Source: Bryobacteraceae bacterium (GTDB taxonomy: Bacteria; Acidobacteriota; Terriglobia; Bryobacterales; Bryobacteraceae). Taken from it: a DNA stretch of 42,493 nucleotides. Numbering within the stretch: position 1 is the first letter of the stretch; each line of letters opens with the position of its first letter. Under the pieces are notes generated by a model that saw nothing but the letters and a program-made list of their open reading frames with translations, did not search any database and was not told the origin of the DNA. Shown here piece by piece: positions 10,331 through 37,135 of this stretch. A program made the translations under genes and the position numbers. The stretch lies in assembly GCA_014860455.1 (NCBI GenBank), contig JACZJQ010000272.1:1-42493 (forward strand), read 5' to 3'.

Positions 10331-10801
10331 ATGGCGAAGCTGACATTCACGATCAACGGGACACGGCGGACGCTGGACGCCGCCGCGGGGGCGCGGCTGA
10401 TCGATGTGCTGCGCGATGGGTTGGGGTTGACCGGGACGAAGCCAGGATGCCGGGAGGGGACTTGCGGCAGTTGCACGGTGCTTGTTGACGGGCGGGCGAT
10501 GCGGTCGTGCATCACGCCGGCGGCGAGTGTGGCGGGCAAGCGCGTGACGACGATCGAGGGCCTGGCTACGGCAGGGAAACTGCATCCTCTGCAGCAGGCG
10601 TTTCTCGACTATGAGGCGTATCAGTGCGGCTACTGCACCCCGGGGATGATAGTCGGCGCGGCGGGGTTGATTGCCCGCAACGCGTCGCCGGGCGAGCAGG
10701 CCGTCAGACAGGCGCTTGATGGACACATTTGCCGGTGCGGGTCGCAGCCGAGGATTGTTCAGGCGGTGCGGGCGGCGGCGGAGGTGATGCGCCGTGGCTG
10801 A
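10331..10801 (+). CDS. 2Fe-2S subunit of molybdenum hydroxylase
   Basis: A 156-residue xanthine-dehydrogenase-family small subunit (IorA/CoxS-like) that passes electrons from the molybdenum site to an acceptor. The plant-type ferredoxin cluster is C40-x4-C45-x2-C48 with C60; the second, all-helical cluster domain uses C99-G-Y-C102 and C134-R-C136. Length and order of the two domains are normal. No signal peptide of its own. Its last eight bases overlap the large subunit, so the two are translationally coupled. No FAD subunit is nearby, which matches two-subunit IorAB-type enzymes that usually donate to cytochromes. Confidence 0.93.
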   Translation: MAKLTFTINGTRRTLDAAAGARLIDVLRDGLGLTGTKPGCREGTCGSCTVLVDGRAMRSCITPAASVAGKRVTTIEGLATAGKLHPLQQAFLDYEAYQCGYCTPGMIVGAAGLIARNASPGEQAVRQALDGHICRCGSQPRIVQAVRAAAEVMRRG

Positions 10802-12656
10802 CCTGACGTTGCTGGTGGAATACAAGCGCCGCGAATTCCTGAAGGTGCTGGCGTCGGGTGCGTCGCTCACCATTCCTGTCGAACTTCAGGGCGCCGAGAC
10901 GCGTGTCCATGTGCGGCGCGCGGCGGACGGCAGGATCGACGCCTTCACAGGCAAGATCGATATGGGGCAGGGGCTGCGGACGCTGCTCTCGCAGTGCGTG
11001 GCGAATGAACTGGGCGTCCCGGTGGAGGAAGTTCGTTTGGTGATGGGCGACACGGACCTGACGCCCGATGACGGCGGGACCTGGGCTTCACTGACCACGC
11101 CTGAAACGGTTCCGGCGATGCGCAAAGACGCCGCGGCGGTGCGGGGCGCGCCGCTGCGGGAGCCGAAGGAGTGGACGGCGCTGGGCAGGTCACAGAGGAA
11201 CCTGAACGGGCCGGATATTGTCACCGGCGCGTTCAAGTACAACAGCGACGTGAAGGTGGACGGCATGTGGCACGGCGTGGTGCTGCGGCCTGCCGAATAC
11301 CGGGCGAAGCTGGTTTCCGCCGAGGGGCAGGGCGTTGTGCGTCAGGGCGACTTTGCGGGCATCTGCGCGCCGACGCTGGCCGAAGCCCGCGCGCTCGCTG
11401 CCAAGGCGAAGGCCGAATGGGCGTACGAGCCGTTGCCTGCGTTCGACAAGATGATTGCTGCGTTCAAGGCCGAGGGGAAGCCGCCGGTTGAGAACAACCA
11501 GGTTCGATACCCGCCGCTGATCCGGCGCGGCGATGCGGAGAAGGCGCTGGCGACGGCTTCGCAGCGCAGGTCGCTGGCGTTCACGTTGGCGCCGATCGCC
11601 CATGCCGCGCTGGAGCCGCGCTCGGCGATTTCCAGCTTCGGCGAGGACGGGCGGTTGACCATCCGCTGCGGCAAGCAGGCGCCGTTTGTGGTGCGGGCCG
11701 AGGTGGCCAAGGCGATGGGGATGAAGGAGACCGACGTCCGCATCATCGTCGATATGCCGGGCGGCGGGTTCGGGTGCAAGCAGCGTTCGGATGTTGAAGT
11801 GGAAGCGGCGCGGCTGGCCAAGGCTTCGGGCAAGACGGTCCGTGTCGAATGGTCGCGGGCCGATGAGTTCGTTTGGTCGTATGCGCGGCCGGCCGCGCTG
11901 ATCGAGACCGAGACGGGCGTGGCCGCCTCGGGCCGGATCGTCTCGTGGCGGCAGCGGAACTACAACGCCGGTGCGCCGGGTCTGCGGCCGCCGTATGATT
12001 TCGCCGACCACTCGAACGAGTTCTGGGCCACGCGCGCGCCGCTGCGGCAGGGGTCGTACCGGGCCCTGGCGGCGACGGGCAACAACTTCGCCCGCGAATC
12101 GACCGTCGATGAATGGGCCTCGACGCTGAACCGCGATCCGCTGGAGTACCGCCTGGCGCATATAGCCGACCAACGGCTGAGGGCGGCGCTGGAGATGGCC
12201 GCTCAGCGGTTCGGCTACAAGGGGCGCAAGGTAGGCGTGGGGCTGGCCTGCAATTTGGAAAAAGAGGGCCGGATGGCGCTGTTTGTCGAATGCGCGATGG
12301 AGCCGTTCCGCATCCTGCGCATGACGTGCGTGGCCGATTTCGGGGCGGCGCTGAATCCGTCGAACTTGCAAAATCAAGTCCAGGGCGCGCTCATCATGGG
12401 CATCGGCGGGGCGCTGTGGGAGCGACTGGAATTCGACTCAACGAAGCAGTTGACCACGCGTTTGACTAACTACAGAGTGCCGCGGTTCACGGATGTTCCA
12501 GCGATGGATGTGCACATTGTGGACCGGCGCGAGATCACGGCCGCCGGGGCAGGAGAGGCGGGAATCACGCTGACTGCGCCGGCGCTGGCTGCGGCGATCT
12601 TCTCGTTGACCGGCAAGCGGCCGATGTCGATGCCGATGCGAGTTCAGACGCCCTGA
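10794..12656 (+). CDS. Molybdopterin-binding aldehyde oxidase-like subunit
   Basis: A 620-residue large subunit of the xanthine dehydrogenase / aldehyde oxidase superfamily, nearest in plan to IorB. It hydroxylates an N-heterocycle or aldehyde at a molybdopterin site. An N-terminal R-R-E-F-L-K followed by a hydrophobic stretch is a good twin-arginine signal. Cofactor-binding landmarks include I-D-M-G-Q-G near residue 55, P-G-G-G-F-G-C-K near residue 325, and the catalytic glutamate E588 in G-A-G-E-A-G before the APALAAAIF helix. It is shorter than IorB proteins of 700 or more residues, with a reduced linker. The substrate is unknown. The 3' end overlaps the opposite-strand zinc-ribbon gene by 13 bases. 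Confidence 0.9.
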   Translation: MADLTLLVEYKRREFLKVLASGASLTIPVELQGAETRVHVRRAADGRIDAFTGKIDMGQGLRTLLSQCVANELGVPVEEVRLVMGDTDLTPDDGGTWASLTTPETVPAMRKDAAAVRGAPLREPKEWTALGRSQRNLNGPDIVTGAFKYNSDVKVDGMWHGVVLRPAEYRAKLVSAEGQGVVRQGDFAGICAPTLAEARALAAKAKAEWAYEPLPAFDKMIAAFKAEGKPPVENNQVRYPPLIRRGDAEKALATASQRRSLAFTLAPIAHAALEPRSAISSFGEDGRLTIRCGKQAPFVVRAEVAKAMGMKETDVRIIVDMPGGGFGCKQRSDVEVEAARLAKASGKTVRVEWSRADEFVWSYARPAALIETETGVAASGRIVSWRQRNYNAGAPGLRPPYDFADHSNEFWATRAPLRQGSYRALAATGNNFARESTVDEWASTLNRDPLEYRLAHIADQRLRAALEMAAQRFGYKGRKVGVGLACNLEKEGRMALFVECAMEPFRILRMTCVADFGAALNPSNLQNQVQGALIMGIGGALWERLEFDSTKQLTTRLTNYRVPRFTDVPAMDVHIVDRREITAAGAGEAGITLTAPALAAAIFSLTGKRPMSMPMRVQTP

Positions 12657-13048: not shown

Positions 13049-13597
13049 CTAAATCAACTCGCTCAACAACTCCGGGCGCGGGTTGGGGATGACGACTTTG
13101 TTCACCAGCAGGCCCTTGCGGCCGATCACCTGAGCGCCGGCCTCGACAGCGCTGCGCACGGCCGAGACGCTGCCGGTAACAACGGCGAACGCCTTGCCAC
13201 CCAGGGCCATGGCCAGGCGAACTTCCATCAGTTGAACATTGGCCGATTTCACCATCTGGTCGGCGGCTTCGATCAGGCTGGCGACGGAGAACGATTCGAC
13301 GATGCCGATGGCCTCCATGGTGCCGATATTGAGCGTTCCGGCGATGGCGGGGAACAGCGAATCGTCCACGTTGGGGATGACAAAGGTGTCGATGACGCTG
13401 AACTCGTTGCGGGTGCGTCCGGCGGTGACGGCGGATTCCACAGCCGCCACGTCGCCCTTCACCATCACCATGTACTTGCCGCTGCAAATAGTCCGTGACA
13501 GGACGAGCGAGACATCGGACTCCTTCAGCATGGCGTCGCAGACCTCGAAGCCGGCGGCGATGCTGGAAAGTTCGATCAGTCCGATTGAGTAGCTCAT
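13049..13597 (-). CDS. pduT: Tandem-domain BMC shell protein, PduT-like
   Basis: A 182-residue BMC-T protein: two bacterial microcompartment domains (about 1-90 and 95-182) that together form pseudohexameric trimers in the shell facet. Domain 1 opens S-I-G-L-I-E-L and domain 2 A-I-G-I-V-E-S. The segment S-R-T-I-C38-S-G-K matches the PduT loop in which one Cys from each of three subunits holds a 4Fe-4S cluster in the central pore, and the Cys is at the same residue number (38) as in Salmonella PduT as I recall it. It overlaps the upstream PduS-like gene in an ATGA, so the two are coupled. This suggests an electron-conducting shell tile. No BMC-H or BMC-P gene is in the window. Confidence 0.9.
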   Translation of the reverse strand: MSYSIGLIELSSIAAGFEVCDAMLKESDVSLVLSRTICSGKYMVMVKGDVAAVESAVTAGRTRNEFSVIDTFVIPNVDDSLFPAIAGTLNIGTMEAIGIVESFSVASLIEAADQMVKSANVQLMEVRLAMALGGKAFAVVTGSVSAVRSAVEAGAQVIGRKGLLVNKVVIPNPRPELLSELI

Positions 13598-14907
13598 CTG
13601 GAAATCTCCACGAATTCGGCGGTGGCCGCGGTCACTGTTCCGTCGATGCTCGAATGGACGTCGGCGCCGAGTTCGCCTTCGTTCATGCGGGCCACGCTCT
13701 GGCCGCGTTTCACTTTTTCGCCCACCTTGACGATGACGGTGGCCGGCTTGCCGGCGTGTTGAAGCGTCAGGATGCGGACCTTCTCCGGCTCGGGTTCTTT
13801 GGCGGTGAACGGCGTGGGCGCCTCGTAGCGCTCGACGTTCAGGCGCTGACGCAGTTGGGCCAGGGGGACGCGGCGGTACTCCTTCATCGGATGGACCTTG
13901 ACCGGCTTCTCCTGGACGAACTTGATGCCGGCGGCGCGCAGATCGGTCTTGGCCTGGTCGCAGGCTTCCTTGGGGAAGAGGTCTTCGGGGCAGGCGTAGA
14001 GGGTGCAGAGTCCGCAGGCGCAGCAGAGCTGGCCCCACTGGTTCCAGTTGTCGGCGCCGGCGAGGGTGAAGCCGAGGGTGCGCATGACTTTGTGGGGCTG
14101 GACGTCGTAGCCGAGCAGGTAGCGCGGGCAGAACTCGGTGCAGTAGCTACACTGGTCGCAGGCGGATTTGCCGATGTGGGCCTTGGCTTCCTTGGGCCGC
14201 GCGCGGCGCTCGACCAGCATGTGGTCGGCGGGCAGGACGATGAGACCGCCGGTGGTCTTGGTGACGGGCTGGTTCCAGTCGAAGCTGAGCGTGCCCATCA
14301 TGAGGCCGGAGACGAAAAGGCCGGCGTCGTCGACGGTCATGCCGCCGGCCATTTCGATGAGTTCTTTGAACGGCGTGCCGACGGCGACCCAGAAGCTGGA
14401 GGGGCGGCGGACCGCGCCGTTGATTGAAACGAACTTGCGCGTGACGGCTCGGCCTTCGACGGCTTCCTGGACGTTATAGAAGGTTTCGACGTTGTTGACG
14501 ACGCAGCCGACGTGGAGCGGGATGCCGCCGGCGGGGATGAGGCGGCCGGTGGCGGTGTAGACGAGTTCGTATTCGTCGCCGGAAGGGTAGAAGTCGCCGA
14601 GGTAGGTCATGCCGATGCCGGCGGCGGTGGCGAGCGGTTCGATGGCGTCGACCGCAGCCTTGTTTTTGTCTTTGATGCCGAACAGGGCGGTGCGGGCTTC
14701 GGTGGATGCGCGCATGGCCTTCATGCCCTCGATGATGGGGGCAGGGAAGTTCTTCATCAACTCGTAGTCTTTATGAAGAAGCGGCTCGCACTCGGCGCCG
14801 TTGGCGAGGAGGTACTCGACTTTGGAATCGGCCTTGACCGCGGTGGGGAATCCGGCGCCGCCGGCGCCGACCACGCCCATGGCGCGCAAACTCTGGCTGA
14901 GAGTCAT
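13594..14907 (-). CDS. pduS: PduS-like RnfC-family Fe-S flavoprotein
   Basis: A 437-residue protein of the RnfC/PduS family. The N-terminal Rossmann-like FMN/NADH region begins with V-G-A-G-G-A-G-F-P; an SLBB-like region follows. Two 4Fe-4S motifs are seen: C250-x2-C253-x2-C256-x3-C260, and a second set around C295, C298, C301 and C306. The C-terminal ~60 residues form a sandwich-hybrid (lipoyl-like) domain with KVGEKVKRGQ. Salmonella PduS is a cobalamin reductase that partners PduT. I start at ATG 14907, with AGGA upstream; an ATG four codons earlier is possible. It overlaps the BMC-T gene by four bases, the arrangement expected for a redox pair at a shell. Confidence 0.9.
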   Translation of the reverse strand: MTLSQSLRAMGVVGAGGAGFPTAVKADSKVEYLLANGAECEPLLHKDYELMKNFPAPIIEGMKAMRASTEARTALFGIKDKNKAAVDAIEPLATAAGIGMTYLGDFYPSGDEYELVYTATGRLIPAGGIPLHVGCVVNNVETFYNVQEAVEGRAVTRKFVSINGAVRRPSSFWVAVGTPFKELIEMAGGMTVDDAGLFVSGLMMGTLSFDWNQPVTKTTGGLIVLPADHMLVERRARPKEAKAHIGKSACDQCSYCTEFCPRYLLGYDVQPHKVMRTLGFTLAGADNWNQWGQLCCACGLCTLYACPEDLFPKEACDQAKTDLRAAGIKFVQEKPVKVHPMKEYRRVPLAQLRQRLNVERYEAPTPFTAKEPEPEKVRILTLQHAGKPATVIVKVGEKVKRGQSVARMNEGELGADVHSSIDGTVTAATAEFVEISR

Positions 14908-26435: not shown

Positions 26436-29417
26436 ATGAGCCAATTCGTTCAAATCAATCCCACAACCACCACCGGCAGGAAATACTGGCGCAGTCTGAA
26501 CCAACTCTCGGGCACGCCCGAATTTAAGCAGTGGGTGGAGCGCGAGTTTCCGGAAGGCGCGACTGACGCCGCCTCGGCCGGTTCGCGCCGCAGCCTGCTG
26601 AAACTGATGGCTGCCAGCTTCGGCCTGGCCGGACTGGCCGCCTGCCGCCGCCCTGTCGAAAAGATCCTGCCGCACGCCAAGGGCGTCGAGGGCCTGATTC
26701 ACGGCAAGCCGCTGCATTACGCCACCGTCGCCACCGTCGGCGGCGCCGCCACGGGCCTGATGGTGGAAACCCACGAAGGCCGCCCGACCAAGGTCGAAGG
26801 CAACGCCAAGCACCCCGCCTCGCTGGGCGCGACCTCGGCGCACATGCAGTCGCTGGTGCTGAGCCTCTATGACCCCGACCGCGCCAAGGGCGTTCGCAAG
26901 GTGGGCGCGCGCTCGTCCTGGGACGAATTCACCGCCTGGGCCAACGGCGAGTTTTCTACCGAAAAGCAGGGCGACGGCTCTGGCCTCCGCATCCTGGCCG
27001 AACGCTCATCGTCGCCGTCGCTCAAATTGGTCCATGAGCAATTGGCGAAGAAGTTCCCCAAAGCCCAGTGGGTTGAGTACGACTCGGTCAACCTCGACAA
27101 CGCGCGTCTCGGTACGCAGCTTGCCTTCGGCCAGCCGCTGGAAGCGCACTATGCGTATGACAAGGCCGATGTCGTCGTCGCCCTCGACGCCGACTTCCTG
27201 GGCCTCGATGCACAGTCGATCCTGCCGGTGAAGCAGTTTTCGGCCAAGCGGCGGGTCGCCAATCACCAATCGAAGATCAACCGGCTCTATGCCGCCGAGT
27301 CCAACTACACCATCACCGGCGCCATGGCCGACCACCGGCTCCGCCTGCGGGCGTCCGACGTCGGCGCGCTGGCCGTCGCCCTGGCCAAGGAACTGAAAGT
27401 CGGCGGCGGTGAGTTGAAGGTACTCTCCTCCAAAGCCGGCGCGGCTGAGAAGTTCGTCGCTGCGGTAGCGAAGGAGCTTGACGCGGCTAAGGGCCGCTCG
27501 ATCGTCGTCGCCGGACCGCGCCAGTCGAAGGAAGTCCACGCGCTTGTCGCGCTGATCAACCAGGCGCTTGGCAACACGGGCGAGACCGTCACCTACACCG
27601 CTCCGGTCGTCAATCCCGACGATTCCGTGGCCGCCGTCAAACAGCTTGTCTCCGACCTCAACGGCGGACAGGTGAAGACGCTCGTTGTGCTGGGTGGCAA
27701 CCCGGTCTACACGCTGCCTGGTGATTTGAACTTCGCCGACGCGATGAAGAAGGCAGCCTCGACGGTCGTCCTCGCCGCCGACGAAAACGAAACCTGGGTC
27801 GCCGCCCAGTGGCAGTTGCCCGAAGCGCATCCGTTCGAAGCCTGGGGCGATGCCCGCGCGCTGGACGGCACGGTGTCGATCCAGCAGCCTCTGGTTGCCC
27901 CGCTCTACTACGGCAAGCCGGCGATTGAAGTGGCCGCCATGATCGCCGGACTGGAAAAGACCTCGGCGCATGAGATCGTCAAATCCCACTGGTCGGCCCA
28001 GTGGGGCGCCGCCGCAGAGAAGACCTGGAAGCTGTCGCTGTACAACGGTTTTATCGAAGGCACGAAGTCTGAGGCTGTGAAGCCCACGGCCGACATTGCC
28101 AAAGTCTACGCCTCCATCGCCCCTGCTTTGAAGGCCGCTCCGGCGGGCCTTGAAATCGTCTTCTACCCCGGCCACTCCACCTACGACGGCCGCTTCGCCA
28201 ACAACGCCTGGATGCAGGAAGCGCCCGACCCCATGACCAAACTGGTTTGGGACAACGCCGCGCTGCTCTCCGCCACCACGGCAGACAAGATCGGCGTCAC
28301 CACCGGCAGCATCGTCAATGTCCAGGTGGGCGGGCGTGGCACCGACGTGCCGGTGATGGTCCAGCCCGGCCACGCCGACGATTCCATCTCTCTCACCCTC
28401 GGCTACGGTCGCGCCGCTTGCGGACGTGTCGGCCGCGGCGTCGGCCACCGCGTTGAATTCGTCCGCACCGCCGCCGCTTTCCACTTCGCCCGGGCATCGG
28501 CGACGCCCAACGGCAACACCTACGAACTGGTGACAACCCAGGAACATCACACTCTGGAAGAGCCCATCACCGGCAAGACCCGCCCCATCGTTCTCGAAGC
28601 CACGATGGAGGAGTACCACCATCACCCCGACCACTTCGAGCACGCGGTCCACGTGCCTGAAGTCGTCAACATGTTTCCGCAGTTCGATTGGTCCAAAGGC
28701 GCCCAGTGGGGCATGACCATCGACCTCAACGCCTGCACCGGCTGCAATGCCTGTCTGGTGGCCTGCCAGGCCGAAAACAACATCCCCGTCGTCGGCAAAG
28801 ACCAGGTCAAGCGCGGACGCGAAATGCACTGGATCCGCCTCGACCGCTACTTCACCGGCGATCAAAACGACCCGCAGGTGGTCAACCAGCCCATGGCCTG
28901 CGTGCAGTGCGAAAACGCGCCCTGCGAAAGCGTCTGCCCCGTGGCCGCCACGGCGCACTCGCCCGAGGGGCTGAACGACATGGCCTACAACCGCTGCGTC
29001 GGCACCCGCTACTGCGCCAACAACTGCCCCTACAAGGTCCGCCGCTTCAACTTCCTCAACTGGAACAAGGACCTCGCCGAGTCGCAGAAGATGGTCTTCA
29101 ACCCCGACGTCACCGTCCGCATGCGCGGTGTCATGGAGAAGTGCAACTACTGCGTCCAGCGCATTCAGGAGGCCAAGATCGAGGCCAAGGCCAACAACCG
29201 CGCCGAACTCAAGGATGGCGACGTGCGCTCGGCCTGCCAGCAGGTCTGCCCCGCCGACGCCATCGTCTTCGGCAACATCAACGACCCCAACAGCAAGGTG
29301 GCGCAGATGAAGAAGCAGCAGCGCGACTACATCCTGCTCGAAGAACTGAACATAAAACCGCGCACCAGCTACCTTGGCAAGCTGCGCAATCCCAATCCGG
29401 AGCTGATTCATGGCTGA
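26436..29417 (+). CDS. actB: ACIII iron-sulfur subunit ActB
   Basis: A 993-residue periplasmic subunit made of a molybdopterin-oxidoreductase-like domain, which in this family has lost the cofactor, and a C-terminal ferredoxin region. A twin-arginine motif S50-R-R-S-L-L-K precedes a hydrophobic stretch ending in L-A-A-C70, a lipobox-like site. Four iron-sulfur motifs are visible: C767-x2-C-x2-C-x3-C, a set from C822 ([14 protein letters not shown]), one from C854 ([12 protein letters not shown]) and one from C903 (CNYCVQ) completed by CQQVCP. They carry electrons from ActC to the hemes. The 3' end overlaps actC by eight bases. Confidence 0.95.
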
Positions 29418-30795
29418 TCTCGCCCTTGATCCTCGCGCCGAACTTAATCCGACCCTGGTTCAGGGCGATGCGACGTATGCCGGCGTCACCGACGCCATCA
29501 GCGTCATCACCGAATCCAAACCCCCCAAGCAGTGGTATTACGCCATGGCCGTGGCCATCCCGCTGGCCGGCCTATTGTTCTTCTGCCTCGGCTATCTGGT
29601 CATGAACGGCATCGGCGTCTGGGGCAACAACTCCCCCGTCGGCTGGGGCTGGGACATCACAAACTTCGTCTGGTGGATCGGCATCGGCCACGCCGGAACG
29701 CTGATCTCGGCCATCCTCTTCCTGTTCCGTCAGAAGTGGCGGACCTCCATCAACCGCGCCGCCGAAGCCATGACGCTTTTCGCTGTCGCCTGCGCCGGCA
29801 TCTACCCCCTGTTCCACACTGGACGCCCCTGGCGCGCGGCGTACTGGCTGTTCCCCATGCCGAATGAGCTGCTCGGCATGTGGCAGAACTTCCGCTCTCC
29901 GCTTATGTGGGACGTCTTCGCTGTTTCGACCTACGCCACCGTCTCCGCCCTGTTCTGGTACGTCGGCCTGGTGCCTGACCTGGCCACGCTGCGCGACCGG
30001 GCCAAGGGCCTGCGCCAGCAGATCTTCGGCATCCTGAGCCTCGGCTGGCGCGGATCCGCGAGGCAGTGGAAGCACTACGAACTGGCTTACCTGATCCTGG
30101 CCGGTCTCTCCACGCCGCTGGTGCTTTCGGTGCACTCGATCGTTTCGTTCGACTTCGCCACGTCGGTCATCCCCGGTTGGCACACGACGATCTTTCCGCC
30201 CTACTTCGTCGCCGGCGCCATCTTCTCCGGTTTCGCCATGGTCATCACGCTGATGGTGCTGGCCCGCTGGGTCTACAACCTCCAGCACCTGATCACGATC
30301 AAGCACCTGGAAAACATGTGCAAGGTGATTCTGGCCACCGGCATGATTGTGGGCTTCGCCTACGGCACCGAGTTTTTCATCGCCTGGTACAGCGCCAACC
30401 AGTATGAGAAGTTCGCCTTCCTCAACCGCGCCTTCGGTCCCTACGCCTGGGCCTACTGGTCGATGATCACCTGCAACGTGATCTCGCCACAGTTCTTCTG
30501 GTTCAAGAAGGTCCGCACGTCGATCCCGGCCATGTTCATCCTAGCCATCTTCATCAACATCGGCATGTGGTTTGAGCGCTTCGTCATCATCGCCACTTCG
30601 CTCCACCGCGACTTCCTGCCGTCGTCCTGGGGCTACTTCTCGCCCACCTGGGTCGACATCGGCACCTTCGTCGGCACGATTGGCCTGTTCCTCACCTTGT
30701 TCCTTCTCTTCCTGCGCTTCCTGCCTGCCATCGCTATCAGCGAGGTGAAGGGCGTGCTGCACAACCAGCTTGTCTCCAACAAAGGAGGCCACTAA
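29410..30795 (+). CDS. actC: ACIII quinol-oxidising membrane subunit ActC
   Basis: A 461-residue NrfD/PsrC-family integral protein with about ten membrane segments; in ACIII structures this subunit holds the quinol site next to the ActB iron-sulfur chain. Sequence signatures include [20 protein letters not shown] and [10 protein letters not shown]. It is coupled to actB by an eight-base overlap and is followed four bases later by actD. ActF in this operon is its shorter relative. Confidence 0.95.
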
Positions 30796-30799
30796 AGCC

Positions 30800-31384
30800 A
30801 TGGCCGATCTCCTCGACAAACTGCCTCTGCCAGCCTTCCTCAAGCCTGCCGATACCGGCGGCCACTACGGCGTCATCGGCGACTTCGACACCCCCGAAGC
30901 CCTGCTGCGCGCCATCCGTACCGCGCGCACCGCCGGCTACACGAAGTTTGAAGCCTACACCCCGTTCCCCATCCACGGCATCGACGATGCCATGGGCGAG
31001 CCGCGTTCGCCGCTTGGCCGGATCGTCGTCGTCTGCGCGCTGCTGGGCCTCAGCGGGGCGGTGCTGCTGCAGTGGTGGACCGGCGCGGTCGACTATCCCA
31101 TCATCATCGCAGGCAAGCCGCTGTTCGCCATCGAACCGTCGATCCCCATCATCTTCGAACTGGGCGTCCTGCTGTCGGCCTTCGGTACGGTCTTCGGCAT
31201 GTTGGCTCTCAACAAGCTGCCCACTTACTACCACCCGGCCTTCAACTTCTCCAAGTGGGCCGGCGCCAGCAACGACCGTTTCCTGCTGGCCATCGAGGCC
31301 ATCGACCCCAAGTTCAACCCCGACGAGATCAAAGTGCTGATGGACTCGCTCGGCAGCCGCTGCACCGAGCTGGTCGAGGCATAG
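30800..31384 (+). CDS. actD: ACIII subunit ActD (DUF3341)
   Basis: A 194-residue protein with the DUF3341 N-terminal motif F-D-T-P-E-A-L-L-R-A-I and Y-T-P-F-P-I-H-G, and two membrane helices (roughly 74-95 and 115-140). ActD packs against ActC and ActF in the membrane arm; no cofactor is expected. AAGGAGG 11-17 bases before the ATG at 30800 supports this start, and the ribosome binding site sits inside the end of actC. Confidence 0.93.
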   Translation: MADLLDKLPLPAFLKPADTGGHYGVIGDFDTPEALLRAIRTARTAGYTKFEAYTPFPIHGIDDAMGEPRSPLGRIVVVCALLGLSGAVLLQWWTGAVDYPIIIAGKPLFAIEPSIPIIFELGVLLSAFGTVFGMLALNKLPTYYHPAFNFSKWAGASNDRFLLAIEAIDPKFNPDEIKVLMDSLGSRCTELVEA

Positions 31385-31396
31385 GACGTGACACCG

Positions 31397-32035
31397 ATGA
31401 GAATCACGCGAACCGATTCGATCCGATTCAACCGCCGCGCCGCCCTCATGCTGGCCGTCGTGGCCCTCGGCCTGCTCCAGTCGGCCTGCTCAAACTTCAC
31501 CACCCGCCAGCCTCCCGTCTGGGTCTGGACCGACATGAAGAAGCAGGACAAGTACAAGGCCCAGGCCGAAAGCCAGTTCTTCGCCGACGCACGCGCCTCG
31601 CGCCGTCCCGTTGAAGGCGCCGTCGCCCAGGAACTCTACGTCGCCGACACCCCCCGCGCAACCGGCGTCGAAGACAACGGCACTTACGTCGCCCGCAACC
31701 CGCTCCCCCTCTCCAAGGAAACCCTGCTCCGCGGCCAGCAGCGTTACAACATCTACTGCGCCCCCTGCCACGACCGCACCGGCACAGGACGCGGCGTTGT
31801 CCCGTCCAAGGCCGTCTGGGTTCCCGGCAATCTCCACGACCCGCGCATGGTCAGCATGGTCGACGGCGAGATCTACCACGTCGTCTCCTTCGGCCGCCGC
31901 TCCATGCCCGGCTACCGCTTCCAGGTGACTGAAAACGACCGCTGGGCGATTGTCGCCTACGTCCGCGCCCTGCAACGGGCCTCGCTCTCGACCATGGCCG
32001 ACGTCCCGGCCGACATGCAGGAGAAGGTGAAGTAA
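31397..32035 (+). CDS. actE: ACIII monoheme cytochrome c lipoprotein ActE
   Basis: A 212-residue lipoprotein. The signal peptide ends in a lipobox L-Q-S-A-C. The single heme site is C121-A-P-C-H125, with a likely Met axial ligand in R-R-S-M-P-G-Y. ActE sits at the periplasmic end of ACIII. I chose ATG 31397, ten bases after AGGA, rather than the GTG at 31388, which has no usable spacing. The reading frame lies between actD (12-base gap) and actF (two-base gap). Confidence 0.94.
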   Translation: MRITRTDSIRFNRRAALMLAVVALGLLQSACSNFTTRQPPVWVWTDMKKQDKYKAQAESQFFADARASRRPVEGAVAQELYVADTPRATGVEDNGTYVARNPLPLSKETLLRGQQRYNIYCAPCHDRTGTGRGVVPSKAVWVPGNLHDPRMVSMVDGEIYHVVSFGRRSMPGYRFQVTENDRWAIVAYVRALQRASLSTMADVPADMQEKVK

Positions 32036-32037
32036 CC

Positions 32038-33246
32038 ATGGCTCATACGCATCAAGACTCCGCCCTCTCGCGGGATAGCTACATCCTGAAGCCCGAGCTG
32101 TGGCAGCGGGTCCGCAACACGCTGGCCTTCGCCGCGCTGGTGGGTTGGATCGCCCTCGGCGCAGGCTTCGCCCTCAACCGCGACCAGTTCCACTTCTCCT
32201 ATCTCGTCGCCTTCGCCTTCTGCATCTCCATCACCTTGGGCGCTCTGTTTTACGTTCAGGTCCAGCACCTCACCGGTTCGGCCTGGAGCGTCACAGTTCG
32301 CCGGCTGATGGAAACCCTGATGCGCACCATCCCCGCCGGGCTGATTCTGTTTATCCCCATCGCCTTCGGCATCCACACGGTCTATGAATGGAGCCATGCC
32401 TCGGCCGCCTCGGACCCCATCCTGCAGCAGAAGGCCGCCTTCCTCAACTCCACCGGCTTCATCGTCCGCGGCTTCATCGTCCTCGCTCTGTGGAGCATCT
32501 GGGCCGTCCGCCTCTACTCGCTCTCACGGAAGCAGGATGCATCCGGCTCCCTGGAATTCACCAGGTCCAGCGAGAAATGGAGCGCCCCCGGCGTACTGAT
32601 CCTCTTCCTGTCTGCATCGCTGGCCTCATTCGACTGGATCATGTCGCTCGACCCGCACTGGTGGTCGACCATGTTCGGCGTCTACTTCCTGGCCGGCGGC
32701 GCTGTCGCTTTCATGGCCGTGCTCATCGCCGTCTGTCTCGGCCTGCGCAGCGCCGGTTATCTTTCCGACGCCATTAACGAAGAGCACTACCACGACCTCG
32801 GCAAGTGGCTCTTCGCCCTCACCGTCTTCTGGGCCTACGTCACGTTTTCGCAGTACATGCTCATCTGGTACGGCAACCTACCTGAAGAGGGCATCTGGTA
32901 CCACCGCCGCATGGTCGGCTCCTGGTCCGGTTTCATGCCGCTGATGATCATCGGCCACTTCATCATCCCCTTCGTCACCCTCATGCCGCGGTCGAGCAAG
33001 CGCAACCTGAAGATGCTCGGCTTTTTCTCCGGCTGGATGCTGGTGATGCACTACCTGGATCTGTACTGGCAGGTCATGCCCGTGCTGCATAAGACCGGCG
33101 TCGCTTTCCACTGGATCGACCTGGCCGCCCTGGTGGCGCTGGTGAGCACTTTCGGCCTCGTCTTCTGGTCCGGCCTGCGCGAACGCCCGCTGGTCCCGGT
33201 CGGCGACCCCAGGCTCGAACAGTGCCTCGGCTTCCATAACGCCTGA
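32038..33246 (+). CDS. actF: ACIII integral membrane subunit ActF
   Basis: A 402-residue NrfD-like protein with about ten membrane segments, the second large membrane subunit of ACIII and paralogue of ActC. The segment L-A-S-F-D-W-I-M-S-L-D-P-H-W-W-S-T is the family signature, and Y-M-L-I-W-Y-G-N-L-P-E-E further marks it. In known complexes it contacts the oxidase in the ACIII-caa3 supercomplex. It starts two bases after actE. Confidence 0.94.
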   Translation: MAHTHQDSALSRDSYILKPELWQRVRNTLAFAALVGWIALGAGFALNRDQFHFSYLVAFAFCISITLGALFYVQVQHLTGSAWSVTVRRLMETLMRTIPAGLILFIPIAFGIHTVYEWSHASAASDPILQQKAAFLNSTGFIVRGFIVLALWSIWAVRLYSLSRKQDASGSLEFTRSSEKWSAPGVLILFLSASLASFDWIMSLDPHWWSTMFGVYFLAGGAVAFMAVLIAVCLGLRSAGYLSDAINEEHYHDLGKWLFALTVFWAYVTFSQYMLIWYGNLPEEGIWYHRRMVGSWSGFMPLMIIGHFIIPFVTLMPRSSKRNLKMLGFFSGWMLVMHYLDLYWQVMPVLHKTGVAFHWIDLAALVALVSTFGLVFWSGLRERPLVPVGDPRLEQCLGFHNA

Positions 33247-33269
33247 TCACGAAACAAGGAACTCTGAAC

Positions 33270-33725
33270 ATGGCAGAAGAAAACAATCAGGTTCACCTTC
33301 CCACCGCGGAGGAAGGCTACGACCGCCACGAACCCCGGGCCGGCCTGGTCGTCCTGGTCTCCGGCATCACTGTCGCCGTGCTGGTGGTCTTCATTGTCGG
33401 CACCTACTGGCTCTATCAGGTCAGCTTCGAGGCCATCGAACAGCAGCAGTTCACCGGCGTCGCCAGCAAGGAACTTCTTGCGATTCGTGAACGCGAGGAC
33501 GCGCATCTACACAAGTACGCGGTCATCGACAAAACCAAGGGTACGGTGCGCATCCCCATCGACCGCGCGATCGAAATCGTTGCCTCCGATTACGCCCAAG
33601 GTAAAGTCTTCTACAACACGGCCACCTATGCCGTGAAACCCGAGCCCCCCGGCGGCGCCGCCGCCCCGGCCCAGGCGCCCGCAGCACCACAGAATGCCAA
33701 TGCCCAAACTGCTCCAGCTAAGTAG
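33270..33725 (+). CDS. Small single-helix protein at the actG position
   Basis: A 151-residue protein with one membrane helix (about 27-50), a conserved periplasmic segment R-E-R-E-D-A-H-L-H-K-Y followed by G-T-V-R-I-P-I-D-R-A-I-E, and an Ala/Pro-rich tail from ~125. The REDAxLxxY...VRIPIxRAM pattern occurs in small proteins next to SCO and oxidase genes in other phyla. Its role is not established; by place it could be an ACIII accessory subunit (ActG-like) or an oxidase assembly factor. A good AAGGAA precedes the ATG. The last 32 bases overlap the sco gene in another frame. Confidence 0.85.
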   Translation: MAEENNQVHLPTAEEGYDRHEPRAGLVVLVSGITVAVLVVFIVGTYWLYQVSFEAIEQQQFTGVASKELLAIREREDAHLHKYAVIDKTKGTVRIPIDRAIEIVASDYAQGKVFYNTATYAVKPEPPGGAAAPAQAPAAPQNANAQTAPAK

Positions 33726-34533
33726 CCTCGCCGCGCTGATCCTGGTCGCCCTGGCCCTGCCGGCCACCGCCCAGTCCGTCAGCACCGATAAGCTCCACGA
33801 ACTCGAAGGCGTCCAGGTCGACGAACACCTCGGCGCGCAGGTCGACCTCGATCTGCGTTTCACCGCCGAGGACGGCTACCAGCACTCCCTTCGCGAGTAC
33901 TTTTCGTCCGGCCGCCCGGTGATCCTCAACCTCGTCTATTACACCTGTCCCATGCTCTGCAATCTGGTCCTCAACGGCCAGGTCGCCGCCCTGCGCAAAA
34001 TCGACTGGACCCCCGGCAAGGAATACGAGATCGTCACCATCTCCATCGACCCCACCGAAAACTACGCCATCGCCAGGTCCAAGAAAGCCACCTATCTCGC
34101 CTCCTACGAGCGCCCCGCCCCCGGCTGGCACTTCCTCACTGACTACAATGGCGCGGTCGCCCGCCTCGCCTCCCAGGTCGGCTTCAACTACAAACTCGAC
34201 GACCGCACCGGCCAGTACGCCCACGCCGCCGTCATTTTCGTCCTCACCCCCGAGGGCAAAGTCTCCCGCTATCTCTACGGCATCAACTTCAAACCCTTCG
34301 ACGTCCGCCTCGCTCTGGTGGAAGCCGCCAAGGAGAAGTTCGGCGCTTCGTTTGAAAGCTTCCTGCTCTACTGTTTCCACTACGACCCGGCCGCCAAAAG
34401 CTACACACTGTTCGCCCGCAACATTATGCGCATCGGCGGCCTGTTTACTCTCCTGATCCTTGGCTTGATTCTGCTCCGGCTCTGGCGGCGCGACCGCGCC
34501 CCGTCCACCCACATCATGGTGAATGCAAAATGA
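33694..34533 (+). CDS. sco: SCO1/SenC copper chaperone
   Basis: A 279-residue thioredoxin-fold protein that delivers copper to CuA of oxidase subunit II. It has a cleavable signal (ends near A-T-A-Q), the copper motif Y-T-C85-P-M-L-C89, and a distal His in G-Q-Y-A-H-A-A. A C-terminal membrane helix (about 246-265) anchors it, which is longer than minimal SCO proteins. Start ATG 33694 lies inside the preceding gene; ATG 33700 is an equal alternative. It overlaps coxB by ATGA, so chaperone and client are coupled. Confidence 0.93.
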   Translation: MPMPKLLQLSSLAALILVALALPATAQSVSTDKLHELEGVQVDEHLGAQVDLDLRFTAEDGYQHSLREYFSSGRPVILNLVYYTCPMLCNLVLNGQVAALRKIDWTPGKEYEIVTISIDPTENYAIARSKKATYLASYERPAPGWHFLTDYNGAVARLASQVGFNYKLDDRTGQYAHAAVIFVLTPEGKVSRYLYGINFKPFDVRLALVEAAKEKFGASFESFLLYCFHYDPAAKSYTLFARNIMRIGGLFTLLILGLILLRLWRRDRAPSTHIMVNAK

Positions 34534-35471
34534 ACTGGTTCCGTGATTTCCTACTGCCGAAGTCGGCCGCCTCCAACACTGGCGACGTCGATGGACTCTT
34601 CATGTTCATCAGCTGGCTGACCGTCTTCTTCTTCTTCTTCAATGGCGGACTCATCTGGTATGCCGTCCGCAAGTGGCGCCGCCGATCGAACAACGACATC
34701 ACGCCCCACATTACCCACGACACCAAGCTCGAAGTCATCTGGAGCGTCATACCGCTCATCGTCGTGATGTTCATCTTCTTCTGGGGCTTCCGCGGCTACG
34801 TCCGCGCCTGGGTGGTCCCCAACGACGCCCTGGAAATCGTCGTCACCGGCAAGAAGTGGGTCTGGGAGTTTGAATACCCCGACGGCTCCCGCAGCTTGAA
34901 TGACCTCCACGTCCCGCTCAATAAACCCGTCAAGCTCGTCATGCACTCCGAGGACGTCATCCACAGTTTCTTCGTGCCGGCTTTCCGCATCAAGCGCGAC
35001 GTCATCCCCGGCCGCTACACCGAACTCTGGTTCACCGCCACCGAGCCGGGCATCCATCAGGTCTACTGCACCGAATACTGCGGCCGCGGCCATTCAGACA
35101 TGCTCGCCCGCATCTTTGCCGACACGCCAGAACAGTACGAAGTCTTCCTCCGTGAAGGCGACGAACAGGTGCGCAAGATGCCGCTCAAGGAACTCGGCAA
35201 GCTGGTCTATGAGAACAAGGGCTGCGCCACCTGCCACTCCATCGACGGCACCCGCGGCCAGGGTCCGAGCTTCAAAGGCATCTACGGCCACGAACTCAAG
35301 GACGCCGCCGGCAAGACCCACACCGTCGACGCCAACTACATCCGCGATTCCATCCTCAACCCGCAGGCCGTCGTCGTCGCGGGCTACGAACCCATCATGC
35401 CCACCTTCCAGGGCCTACTGCGCGAGCGCGAGATCCTGGGCATGATCGAGTACATCAAGTCGTTGCAGTAA
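34530..35471 (+). CDS. coxB: caa3 oxidase subunit II with cytochrome c domain
   Basis: A 313-residue subunit II. Two membrane helices (about 22-45 and 67-90) precede the cupredoxin domain, where CuA ligands appear in [10 protein letters not shown] and C180-T-E-Y-C184-G-R-G-H188-S-D-M191. A fused C-terminal cytochrome c domain has C232-A-T-C-H236 and a Met ligand in P-I-M-P-T-F, which defines the caa3 type. The fused heme lets the enzyme accept electrons directly from ACIII. Coupled to sco upstream; coxA follows after 17 bases. Confidence 0.96.
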
Positions 35472-35488
35472 ACAGGAGAACTACGAAA

Positions 35489-37135
35489 ATGGCAGACGCA
35501 ATGACCCCAACCGCGGCCCACAGCCACCCCGACTACCTCTCCGAAAACAAGGGCCTCTGGAACTGGCTCACCACCGTCGATCACAAGCGCATCGGCTTGA
35601 TGTACCTCTGGTCGGTCGCCACTTTCATGATCATCGGCGGCCTGCTCGCCCTGGTCATCCGACTTGAATTGCTCACCCCCAAGCAGACCATCATGTCGGC
35701 CGAGCTTTACAACCGCGCCTTCACGCTGCATGGCGCCATCATGACGTTTCTCGTCATCATCCCCGCCATCCCAGCTATTCTGGGTAACTTCGCGCTCCCA
35801 TTGCTTCTCGGCGCCAAAGACGTCGCCTTTCCCCGCCTGAACCTCGCCTCGCTCTATGTGTACTGGATCGGCGCTGCCATGGCCGTCTCCACCCTGCTGC
35901 TGGGCGGCGTCGATACCGGCTGGACCTTCTACACGCCTTACTCCACCACCACCGGCGGCGGCGTCTCGATGATGGTTCTGGCCGCCTTCGTCCTCGGCTT
36001 CTCGTCCATCTTCACCGGCCTGAACTTCATCGCAACCACTCACAAGCTGCGCGCCCCCGGCATGGGCTGGTTCCAATTGCCTCTGTTCGTCTGGGGCATG
36101 TACTCGACGGCCATCATCCAGATCCTGGCCACGCCGGTGCTGGGCATTACGCTCCTGCTGCTGGTCATGGAACGCGTCTTCCATATCGGTATCTTCGATC
36201 CCCAGCTGGGCGGCGACCCCGTGCTTTTCCAGCACTTCTTCTGGTTCTACTCCCACCCGGCCGTCTACATCATGATCCTGCCGGCCATGGCCGTGATGTC
36301 GGAAGTGATTCCGACCTTCTCGAAGAAGTCCATCTTCGGCTACAAGGCCATCGCCTTCTCCTCGGTCGCCATCGCGCTGCTCGGCTTCCTCGTCTGGGCC
36401 CACCACATGTTTGTCGCAGGCATGAGCCTGTTCGCCGGAGCCATCTTCAGCTTCCTCACCTTCTTCATCGCCATCCCCTCGGCTATCAAGGTCTTCAACT
36501 GGATCGCCACAATGTGGCGTGGATCAATTGACCTCAAAGTCCCGATGCTCTACGCCATCAACTTCCTGTTGATCTTCACCATCGGCGGCCTCACGGGCCT
36601 GTTCCTGGCCTCGCTGTCCACCGACGTCCACCTGCACGACACTTACTTCGTCGTCTCACACTTCCATTACGTCATGGCTGGTTCGAACATGATTGCCCTG
36701 CTCGCCGGGCTGCACTACTGGTGGCCCAAGATGTACGGCCGCATGTACAACAACACGCTGGCCACCATCGCCTGCACGCTCATCTTCATCGGCTTCAACG
36801 CAACATTCCTGCCGCAGTTCGTCATGGGCAGCCGGGGCATGCCGCGCCGTTACTACAACTACCTCGAACAGTTCCAGACCATGCACGTCGCCTCGACCAT
36901 CGGCAGTTGGATCCTGGCCGCGGGCCTGTTCCTGGCGCTGGCCACGCTGCTGGCCAGCTTGCGCAAGCCCAAGGACGCCGTCCCGAATCCCTGGAATGGA
37001 CGCACCTTCGAGTGGGAAGCCGGCTCGCCGCCCATCACCCACAATTTCGAACACACGCCGGTCTGCATCTACTCGCCCTACGACTACCGCGAGAATCCAG
37101 TCCCGATCGCCGAAGAGGAGAAGTCCGCGCACTAG
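35489..37135 (+). CDS. coxA: Heme-copper oxidase subunit I, A2 type
   Basis: The 548-residue catalytic subunit, with twelve helices. Low-spin heme ligand H81 (T-L-H-G); CuB ligands H256, H305 and H306; crosslink Tyr Y260 in H256-P-A-V-Y; and H391 and H393 in V-V-S-H-F-H-Y for the hemes. The motif is Y254-S-H-P-A-V rather than G-H-P-E-V, so the helix VI glutamate is absent and a Tyr-Ser pair replaces it: this is the A2 subclass, as in Rhodothermus caa3. It reduces oxygen to water and pumps protons. Follows coxB by 17 bases. Confidence 0.97.

Follow-up and report, generated by a model that had tools for sequence, protein, structure and literature searches.

Here we describe a PduS-PduT gene pair in a stretch of DNA of 42,493 nucleotides (the window) from a Bryobacteraceae bacterium (assembly GCA_014860455.1, contig JACZJQ010000272.1, called C34 below). 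A gene for a PduT-like shell protein of the BMC-T family (BMC, bacterial microcompartment) overlaps a gene for a PduS-like reductase, while the remaining shell genes of the same genome lie on other contigs. On balance we favor the reading that the pair is a satellite of an ACI-like metabolosome whose genes are dispersed over the genome, and from which it would export electrons from NADH through PduS and PduT. We speak of a satellite, as defined by Axen 2014 and Sutter 2021, because other shell genes are absent from this contig but present elsewhere in the genome: of the two shell families PF00936 and PF03319 only PF00936 is found at the site, the locus is contiguous and the main locus lies elsewhere. 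Since PduS is present as well, the locus is "satellite-like" under Axen's stricter wording, and the label "ACI-like" is used because no hydroxyacid dehydrogenase was found in the 20 kb around the main locus. The relevant features of the window are as follows.

13049..13597, minus strand: pduT-like gene; BMC-T protein with two fused BMC domains, 182 aa
13484..13486, minus strand: codon of C38, by alignment to 3pac and 3nwg the residue that binds the trimer-axis 4Fe-4S cluster in PduT
13594..14907, minus strand: pduS-like gene; protein of 437 aa with Complex1_51K (FMN/NADH), SLBB, 4Fe-4S dicluster and RnfC_N domains
13990..14160, minus strand: the two PduS tetracysteine motifs, C250-x2-C253-x2-C256-x3-C260 and C295-x2-C298-x2-C301-x4-C306
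13594..13597, minus strand: the pduS stop and the pduT start overlap in ATGA

Both PF00936 domains of the PduT-like protein were recognized in the domain search (2.9e-48), and its best solved relatives by sequence are of the PduT type (3nwg, 3pac and 3n79). An AlphaFold monomer model built from 35 relatives gave a pLDDT of 91.6 and, in a structure search, returned 3n79, 3pac and 3nwg as top entries with TM values of 0.90-0.95 (0.90-0.92 for 3n79 and 3pac). The identity to Salmonella PduT is 42-44% in the structural alignment, in which our C38 falls on C38 of the Salmonella protein (3pac) and on a serine in 3n79, an entry whose title names the C38S mutant. In these aligned PduT structures the C38 equivalent sits at the trimer axis, our own model being monomeric. 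The pore motif reads CSGKY. C38 is kept in all 35 members of the class that hold a PduS-PduT pair and in 35 of 36 named relatives, the remaining one ending at a contig edge before the C38 site. The product of 13049-13597 is probably an iron-sulfur shell tile, as judged by sequence and model.

The second protein combines PF01512, PF10531, PF13534 (Fer4_17) and PF13375 in one chain, and the same four domains are given for PduS in PMC6325248. Its tetracysteine spacing is identical to that of Citrobacter PduS as printed in PMC2982820, and all eight motif cysteines are kept in 35 of 35 class pairs. The best solved matches by sequence are RnfC subunits. We assign 13594-14907 as probably encoding an NADH-linked flavo-iron-sulfur reductase of the PduS type. 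A sequence-only reading of the window had described a PduT-like BMC-T protein with C38 whose gene overlaps a PduS-like gene in ATGA, and the open reading frames, the domains and the alignment with 3pac all agree with that description.

The window is the entire contig, and the pair is flanked by 13 kb and 28 kb. No PF00936 or PF03319 match besides the PduT-like gene was found on it, and the genome's sole match to a BMC-type aldehyde dehydrogenase lies on another contig, C269; the earlier claim that the pair stands away from any BMC locus is hence borne out. The host genome is that of a Solibacter-like soil bacterium (5.29 Mb, 356 contigs, 95% complete), and the search for BMC-H and BMC-P genes that the same reading had proposed found both, on contigs other than that of the pair. 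In total, six PF00936 domains are present at four places and three PF03319 proteins at one place. Contig C135 carries a class II aldolase (PF00596) together with a BMC-H and three BMC-P genes in a row and is the main locus. On C269 a BMC-H is followed by a protein of 645 aa whose best matches are acylating acetaldehyde dehydrogenases (best NCBIfam match TIGR02518, with a score below the cut-off). The fourth place is on C65, which holds a further BMC-T of 211 aa that is not of the PduT type. We detected no hydroxyacid dehydrogenase (PF00389/02826) among the 22 of 22 called genes scanned in the 20-kb stretch around the main locus (L010). PF06130 (PduL) has no match in the genome, from which we conclude that PduL is not used and nothing further.

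We can rule out that a complete BMC operon adjoins the window, a layout that would have spoken against a satellite. Besides the 13-kb and 28-kb flanks, the closest named relative (L174, Candidatus Solibacter PR.3.38, 99% identical) has no BMC gene within 8 kb on either side of its pair. Two related genomes assembled as single contigs make the same point. In G097 the pair lies at 0.83 Mb, BMC-P at 2.34 Mb and the aldehyde dehydrogenase at 2.82 Mb, which places the pair 1.5 Mb from BMC-P. In G127 the positions are 3.42 Mb, 0.17 Mb and 1.11 Mb, respectively, and the distance between pair and BMC-P is 3.2 Mb, or 1.6 Mb if the contig is circular.

We next turn to the co-occurrence of the pair with shell genes, a check that had also been proposed from the sequence. 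It was run on 200 genomes of the class and on 297 genomes of the phylum, sets that overlap and are not independent. Of the class genomes, 35 encode a PduT-type protein of full length, 27 of them at 66-100% identity (satellite-type) and eight at 46-50%, and PduS is found in the same 35 with at least 309 bits, the next best match reaching 112 bits. BMC-P occurs in 79 of the 200 genomes, including G022 with its weak match (4.3e-5). The PduS-PduT pair is thus seen in 35 of 79 BMC-P-positive but in none of 121 BMC-P-negative genomes (Fisher 2e-17, kinship ignored). Counted by genus it is found in 25 of 50 with and 0 of 29 without BMC-P (6e-7, genera counted by hand). For the eight in-locus pairs the BMC-P link is plain gene linkage. 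Each of the 27 genomes with a satellite-type pair has the BMC-P triplet, G045 having four BMC-P. An aldehyde dehydrogenase of the C269 type was detected at 47% identity or more in 71 of 80 genomes searched, including all 27 with a satellite-type pair and G010. The satellite-type pair is accordingly present in 27 of 71 genomes with this enzyme and in 0 of 129 without, if the 120 unsearched class genomes are counted as lacking it. Within the 27 satellite-type genomes the PduS and PduT identities correlate with r = 0.78, uncorrected for kinship.

The arrangement of the two genes is also conserved. They are same-strand neighbors in 34 of the 35 class genomes holding both, separated by -10 to 45 bases in 32 genomes and by 170 and 185 bases in two; the exact ATGA overlap (-4) recurs in 5 of the 34 adjacent pairs. 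This adjacency indicates that the pair is not a product of chance, and together with the invariant cysteines it rules out a chance resemblance or a decayed pair. We queried the surroundings of the pairs (35 PduT stretches and the pduS stretch of G174) for BMC-H, BMC-P, both aldolases, both aldehyde dehydrogenases, PduL, acetate kinase and DeoR. None of these BMC-associated genes stands alongside the 27 satellite-type pairs within flanks of 0.7-7.7 kb, those of the window being longer and the shortest ones lying at contig ends, for example in G045 and G054. Seven of the eight other pairs have the full PVM-type gene set alongside, and the pair of G010, on a 5.4-kb contig, is accompanied by an aldolase of the PVM type and a fragment of the dehydrogenase. 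By eye we recognized no shared neighbor that would reveal a pathway among the neighbors listed, and no systematic clustering of the flanks was made. Two genomes combine features of both layouts: G045 (L139) contains PVM-type acetate kinase, PduL, aldolase, DeoR and shell genes besides its ACI-like locus, and G010 contains an ACI-type aldehyde dehydrogenase together with its PVM-type pair.

How such a pair could work is suggested by the published biochemistry of its relatives. Citrobacter PduS contains FMN as well as two 4Fe-4S clusters, can be reduced by NADH and copurifies with tagged PduT, although the converse tagging did not show this (PMC2982820). The potentials are about -150 mV for the PduS cofactors and +99 mV for the PduT cluster, so that a flow from NADH to PduT is downhill, and passage of electrons out of the compartment was already proposed by the authors of that study. 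In the working that we propose, the aldolase would produce an aldehyde inside the shell, which the dehydrogenase would oxidize to the acyl-CoA, yielding NADH. PduS, docked at the inner face of PduT, would then oxidize NADH via FMN and two 4Fe-4S clusters, and the electrons would pass through a 4Fe-4S cluster at the trimer axis of PduT, held by the C38 residues of the three subunits, and reach a cytosolic acceptor. Because the electrons leave in this way, NAD+ would be regenerated inside. Such a path suits a compartment with an NADH-making dehydrogenase and no NAD+-regenerating enzyme visible at the loci read. Given the conserved cysteines and domains, it is plausible that the pair works as an electron gate, and the route from NADH via PduS and PduT to the cytosol is the simplest reading, not a proven one. 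Our own observations cover the genes, their domains and cysteines, the fold, the dispersed layout and the co-occurrence; cofactors, docking and NADH oxidation are carried over from the published biochemistry of PduS and PduT, and we infer the direction of the flow, the acceptor and the uptake of the pair by this particular shell.

The PduT-like proteins of named organisms show how the pair is placed in a wider range of bacteria. The scan of GTDB genomes gave 46 loci, of which 36 are PduT-like; the other ten (L210-L219) are not and were excluded. Beyond the closest relative mentioned above, PduT-like proteins are found in Bryobacterales, Ignavibacteria, Bacteroidetes, Geobacteraceae, Desulfuromusa, Verrucomicrobia and others. 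PduS adjoins PduT in 35 of the 36 loci, the remaining one being truncated by a contig end, and BMC-H and/or BMC-P lie near PduT in seven of them (flanks of up to 8 kb, less on short contigs). In two further loci, L189 and L199, a second BMC-T stands beside PduT. In the PduT tree, from which nine named rows contained in other rows were left out, the 15 in-locus rows require five changes, at least three of them by well-supported branches. The pairs have therefore switched between main and lone position more than once, in whichever direction, or have passed between lineages.

A number of observations weigh against the electron-exporting satellite. The PduT-like protein reaches only 124.8 bits with the NCBIfam eut_PduT equivalog model, under the cut-off of 250.3. 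The PduT of the ethanolamine-type locus L182 misses it as well (121.8 bits), and we therefore call our protein PduT-type and not an equivalog. In G174, pduS and pduT are on separate contigs (its pduS-only contig was left out of the PduT rows). The PduS clusters are oxygen-labile (PMC2982820), whereas the host probably respires oxygen, as judged from the cox genes in the window. Furthermore, 44 of the 79 class genomes with BMC-P have no pair, and no substitute is visible near 38 pair-less main loci or 22 pair-less aldehyde dehydrogenase loci, which means that the pair is non-essential to the compartment and that a need for NAD+ recycling is not demonstrated. While BMC-H and BMC-P are present in the main loci of both the pair-bearing (27) and the pair-less (38) group, the main-locus aldolase is found in 18 of 27 pair-bearing versus 37 of 38 pair-less genomes. 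The pair-bearing main loci without it are L109, L117, L118, L119, L121, L122, L123, L131 and L132, with L131 starting at a contig end.

The idea that the pair stands in for an NAD+-regenerating hydroxyacid or alcohol dehydrogenase found no support: gene clustering showed no gap-filling enzyme, and the differences between the groups look lineage-like. This clustering compared 27 pair-bearing with 38 pair-less main loci and 21 with 22 aldehyde dehydrogenase loci. It left out the main loci of 6 of the 44 pair-less BMC-P genomes (G022, G047, G052, G126, G191 and G193) and, among genomes with the C269 type of aldehyde dehydrogenase, the loci of this enzyme in 6 of the 27 that bear the pair and in 21 of the 43 that lack it. 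The gene caller used for it was rough and missed genes, in some loci a known BMC-H among them.

A serious, ancestral-looking rival, which we nevertheless consider unlikely, is a shell-anchored cobalamin reductase: as in PDU compartments, PduS would provide reduced corrin to an adenosyltransferase and a B12-dependent enzyme whose genes lie at other sites, with PduT as the dock of PduS on the shell. Citrobacter PduS is indeed a PduT-binding corrin reductase (PMC2982820), and the closest in-locus pairs, L182, L194 and L209 with 61-64% PduT identity, which are three of the seven loci with nearby BMC-H and/or BMC-P, lie in ethanolamine-like loci, a point that again speaks against our reading. L182 contains EutC, EutL, EutQ, an aldehyde dehydrogenase and a PduL fused to a cobalamin adenosyltransferase domain, and L194 contains EutJ; the best NCBIfam match of the L182 aldehyde dehydrogenase is TIGR02518, below the cut-off, the same as for the C269 enzyme. 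Because of this kinship, cobalamin reduction may have been the ancestral job. No EutL-type protein is seen among the PF00936 matches of our genome, however, although the PF00936 model detects the EutL of L182 at 49.7 bits, and this argues against a hidden ethanolamine module. Likewise, the genes tested, which comprise all 22 called at the main locus as well as genes on C65 and beside the aldehyde dehydrogenase, include no B12-dependent dehydratase or ammonia-lyase, a genome-wide search not having been made. We regard it as improbable that PduT mainly tunes the permeability or assembly of the shell, with the PduS redox activity as a side function or tied to one substrate in some lineages. Satellite shell genes in general are thought to tune permeability (PMC8217296), and the pair is accessory, being held by 35 of 79 BMC-P genomes. 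Invariance of C38 and of the eight PduS cysteines, and retention of PduS with PduT in 35 of 35 cases, would be unexpected if redox chemistry were dispensable.

Of the two interpretations in the sequence-only reading, a satellite of a shell encoded elsewhere has held up, since BMC-H, BMC-P, aldolase and aldehyde dehydrogenase are present on other contigs. The second, a free PduT trimer acting with PduS outside any compartment, has not; BMC-P accompanies the pair in each of the 35 class genomes that carry it and none of the 121 BMC-P-negative ones has the pair, which makes this option very improbable. What could be said for it comes from the phylum survey, where a PduT-like match at 1e-15 is present in 48 of 297 genomes (down to 27% identity, some being other BMC-T) and 45 of the 48 have BMC-P. 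The three that lack BMC-P also count against our reading, but G248 (98% complete) has one BMC-H elsewhere and G284 has a BMC-H on the PduT contig, 2.4 kb off, while the G274 assembly (440 contigs) is 88% complete and its PduT match spans only 77 residues. The lack of BMC-P in G248 could reflect an assembly gap or a pentamer-free shell. Least probable of all, in our view, is a role that has been put forward in GRM compartments, in which the pair would deliver electrons to the activase of a glycyl-radical enzyme. GRM loci often contain PduS/PduT pairs (PMC6325248), but no glycyl-radical enzyme or activase was seen among the BMC-locus genes tested here, with no genome-wide search, and the host is a probable aerobe.

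Several further observations concern the surroundings of these loci. On C65, the gene for the non-PduT BMC-T overlaps that of an aldolase of the dihydrodipicolinate-synthase family (L012:8940-10582, which is C65 18940-20582). A LacI regulator and myo-inositol-like genes lie on the same strand, the latter for a KduI/IolB family protein, a TPP enzyme, a methylmalonate-semialdehyde dehydrogenase and a transaldolase. This locus may be a further satellite that adds a substrate. The C-terminus of the aldolase ends, as judged by eye, in a helix-like tail that may be an encapsulation peptide. The aldehyde dehydrogenase has a C-terminal tail of about 45 residues (L011:8856-9005), F-V-C-E-x-D-V-R ... 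T-P-S-A-R, which recurs in many among the aldehyde dehydrogenase loci listed and whose motif presumably resembles one of EutT/EutQ-type proteins. In the window, a molybdenum-hydroxylase gene pair (10331-12656, plus strand) is convergent with pduST. It encodes a [2Fe-2S] small and a molybdopterin-binding large subunit, the latter with a twin-arginine-like start, and shows no visible link to BMCs. At 26436-37135 (plus strand), genes for 4Fe-4S and NrfD proteins, which we take to resemble alternative complex III, are followed by cytochrome oxidase subunits, together an aerobic respiratory cluster.

The question whether electrons pass through a shell via PduT is hard to address in PDU compartments, where corrin reduction is entangled with it, and in GRM compartments, where the activation of radical enzymes is. 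In the genomes with the lone pair, its genes stand apart from both activities, and the only enzymes seen at the compartment loci are an aldolase and an aldehyde dehydrogenase. The locus is of moderate interest because it offers a cleaner setting for testing such passage. The lone pair also shows the proposed redox gate to be a module that can be separated, present in some lineages and missing from others without visible change in the remaining shell. More tentatively, we propose for the probably aerobic Acidobacteriota without visible B12 or glycyl-radical enzyme that the pair could be a self-contained, separately inherited electron-export module linking an aldolase metabolosome to cytosolic or respiratory electron flow. 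Re-oxidation of NADH from the encapsulated dehydrogenase would then take place across the shell, a task that falls to an alcohol dehydrogenase in many metabolosomes. If this were true, PduS and PduT would here occur in a natural context that leaves them no second function. The literature already describes PduS-PduT pairs, satellite loci and the dispersal of ACI/FRAG loci. The lone PduS-PduT satellite of an aldolase compartment appears to be new: we found no description of it in the excerpts of the literature searched, although supplementary catalogues, outside that scope, may list it.

Compared with known systems, the two proteins resemble PduS and PduT of the PDU compartment in domain make-up, both tetracysteine motifs, C38 and fold. 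The PDU pair is part of a B12-dependent operon, whereas here it stands alone and the enzymes seen for the compartment are aldolase and aldehyde dehydrogenase. With the pairs of GRM loci it shares the tandem arrangement in a B12-independent compartment, and its CSGKY fits their pore motif C-P/S/A-G-K/R/S-Y/F (PMC6325248); the GRM pair, however, lies within a main locus with the glycyl-radical enzyme. The remaining loci match the ACI compartment of Acidobacteria (PMC8217296) in the PF00596 aldolase, BMC-H, the BMC-P triplet and an aldehyde dehydrogenase on a satellite. ACI main loci carry a hydroxyacid dehydrogenase, in contrast to the 20 kb read here, and ACI is known mainly from subdivisions 4 and 6, whereas our host is Solibacter-like. 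PduS and PduT are not mentioned in the main text of that paper. As in satellite and FRAG loci (PMC4207490, PMC8217296), shell genes lie at several sites with the main locus elsewhere; a PduS-PduT satellite was not found described in these sources. Split PVM-like loci have been reported in Solibacter usitatus (PMC4207490). The PVM arrangement, in which acetate kinase and PduL share a locus with aldehyde dehydrogenase and aldolase, is not seen in our host genome, which has no PF06130 match. The PVM-type loci of the class (G068, G010, G093, G080, G177, G091, G064 and G153) also hold a PduS-PduT pair, with PduT 46-50% identical to ours and, in seven of the eight, a locus with acetate kinase, PduL, BMC-H, BMC-P, aldehyde dehydrogenase, aldolase and DeoR. 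They differ in that the pair is part of the main locus and its PduT forms a separate clade.

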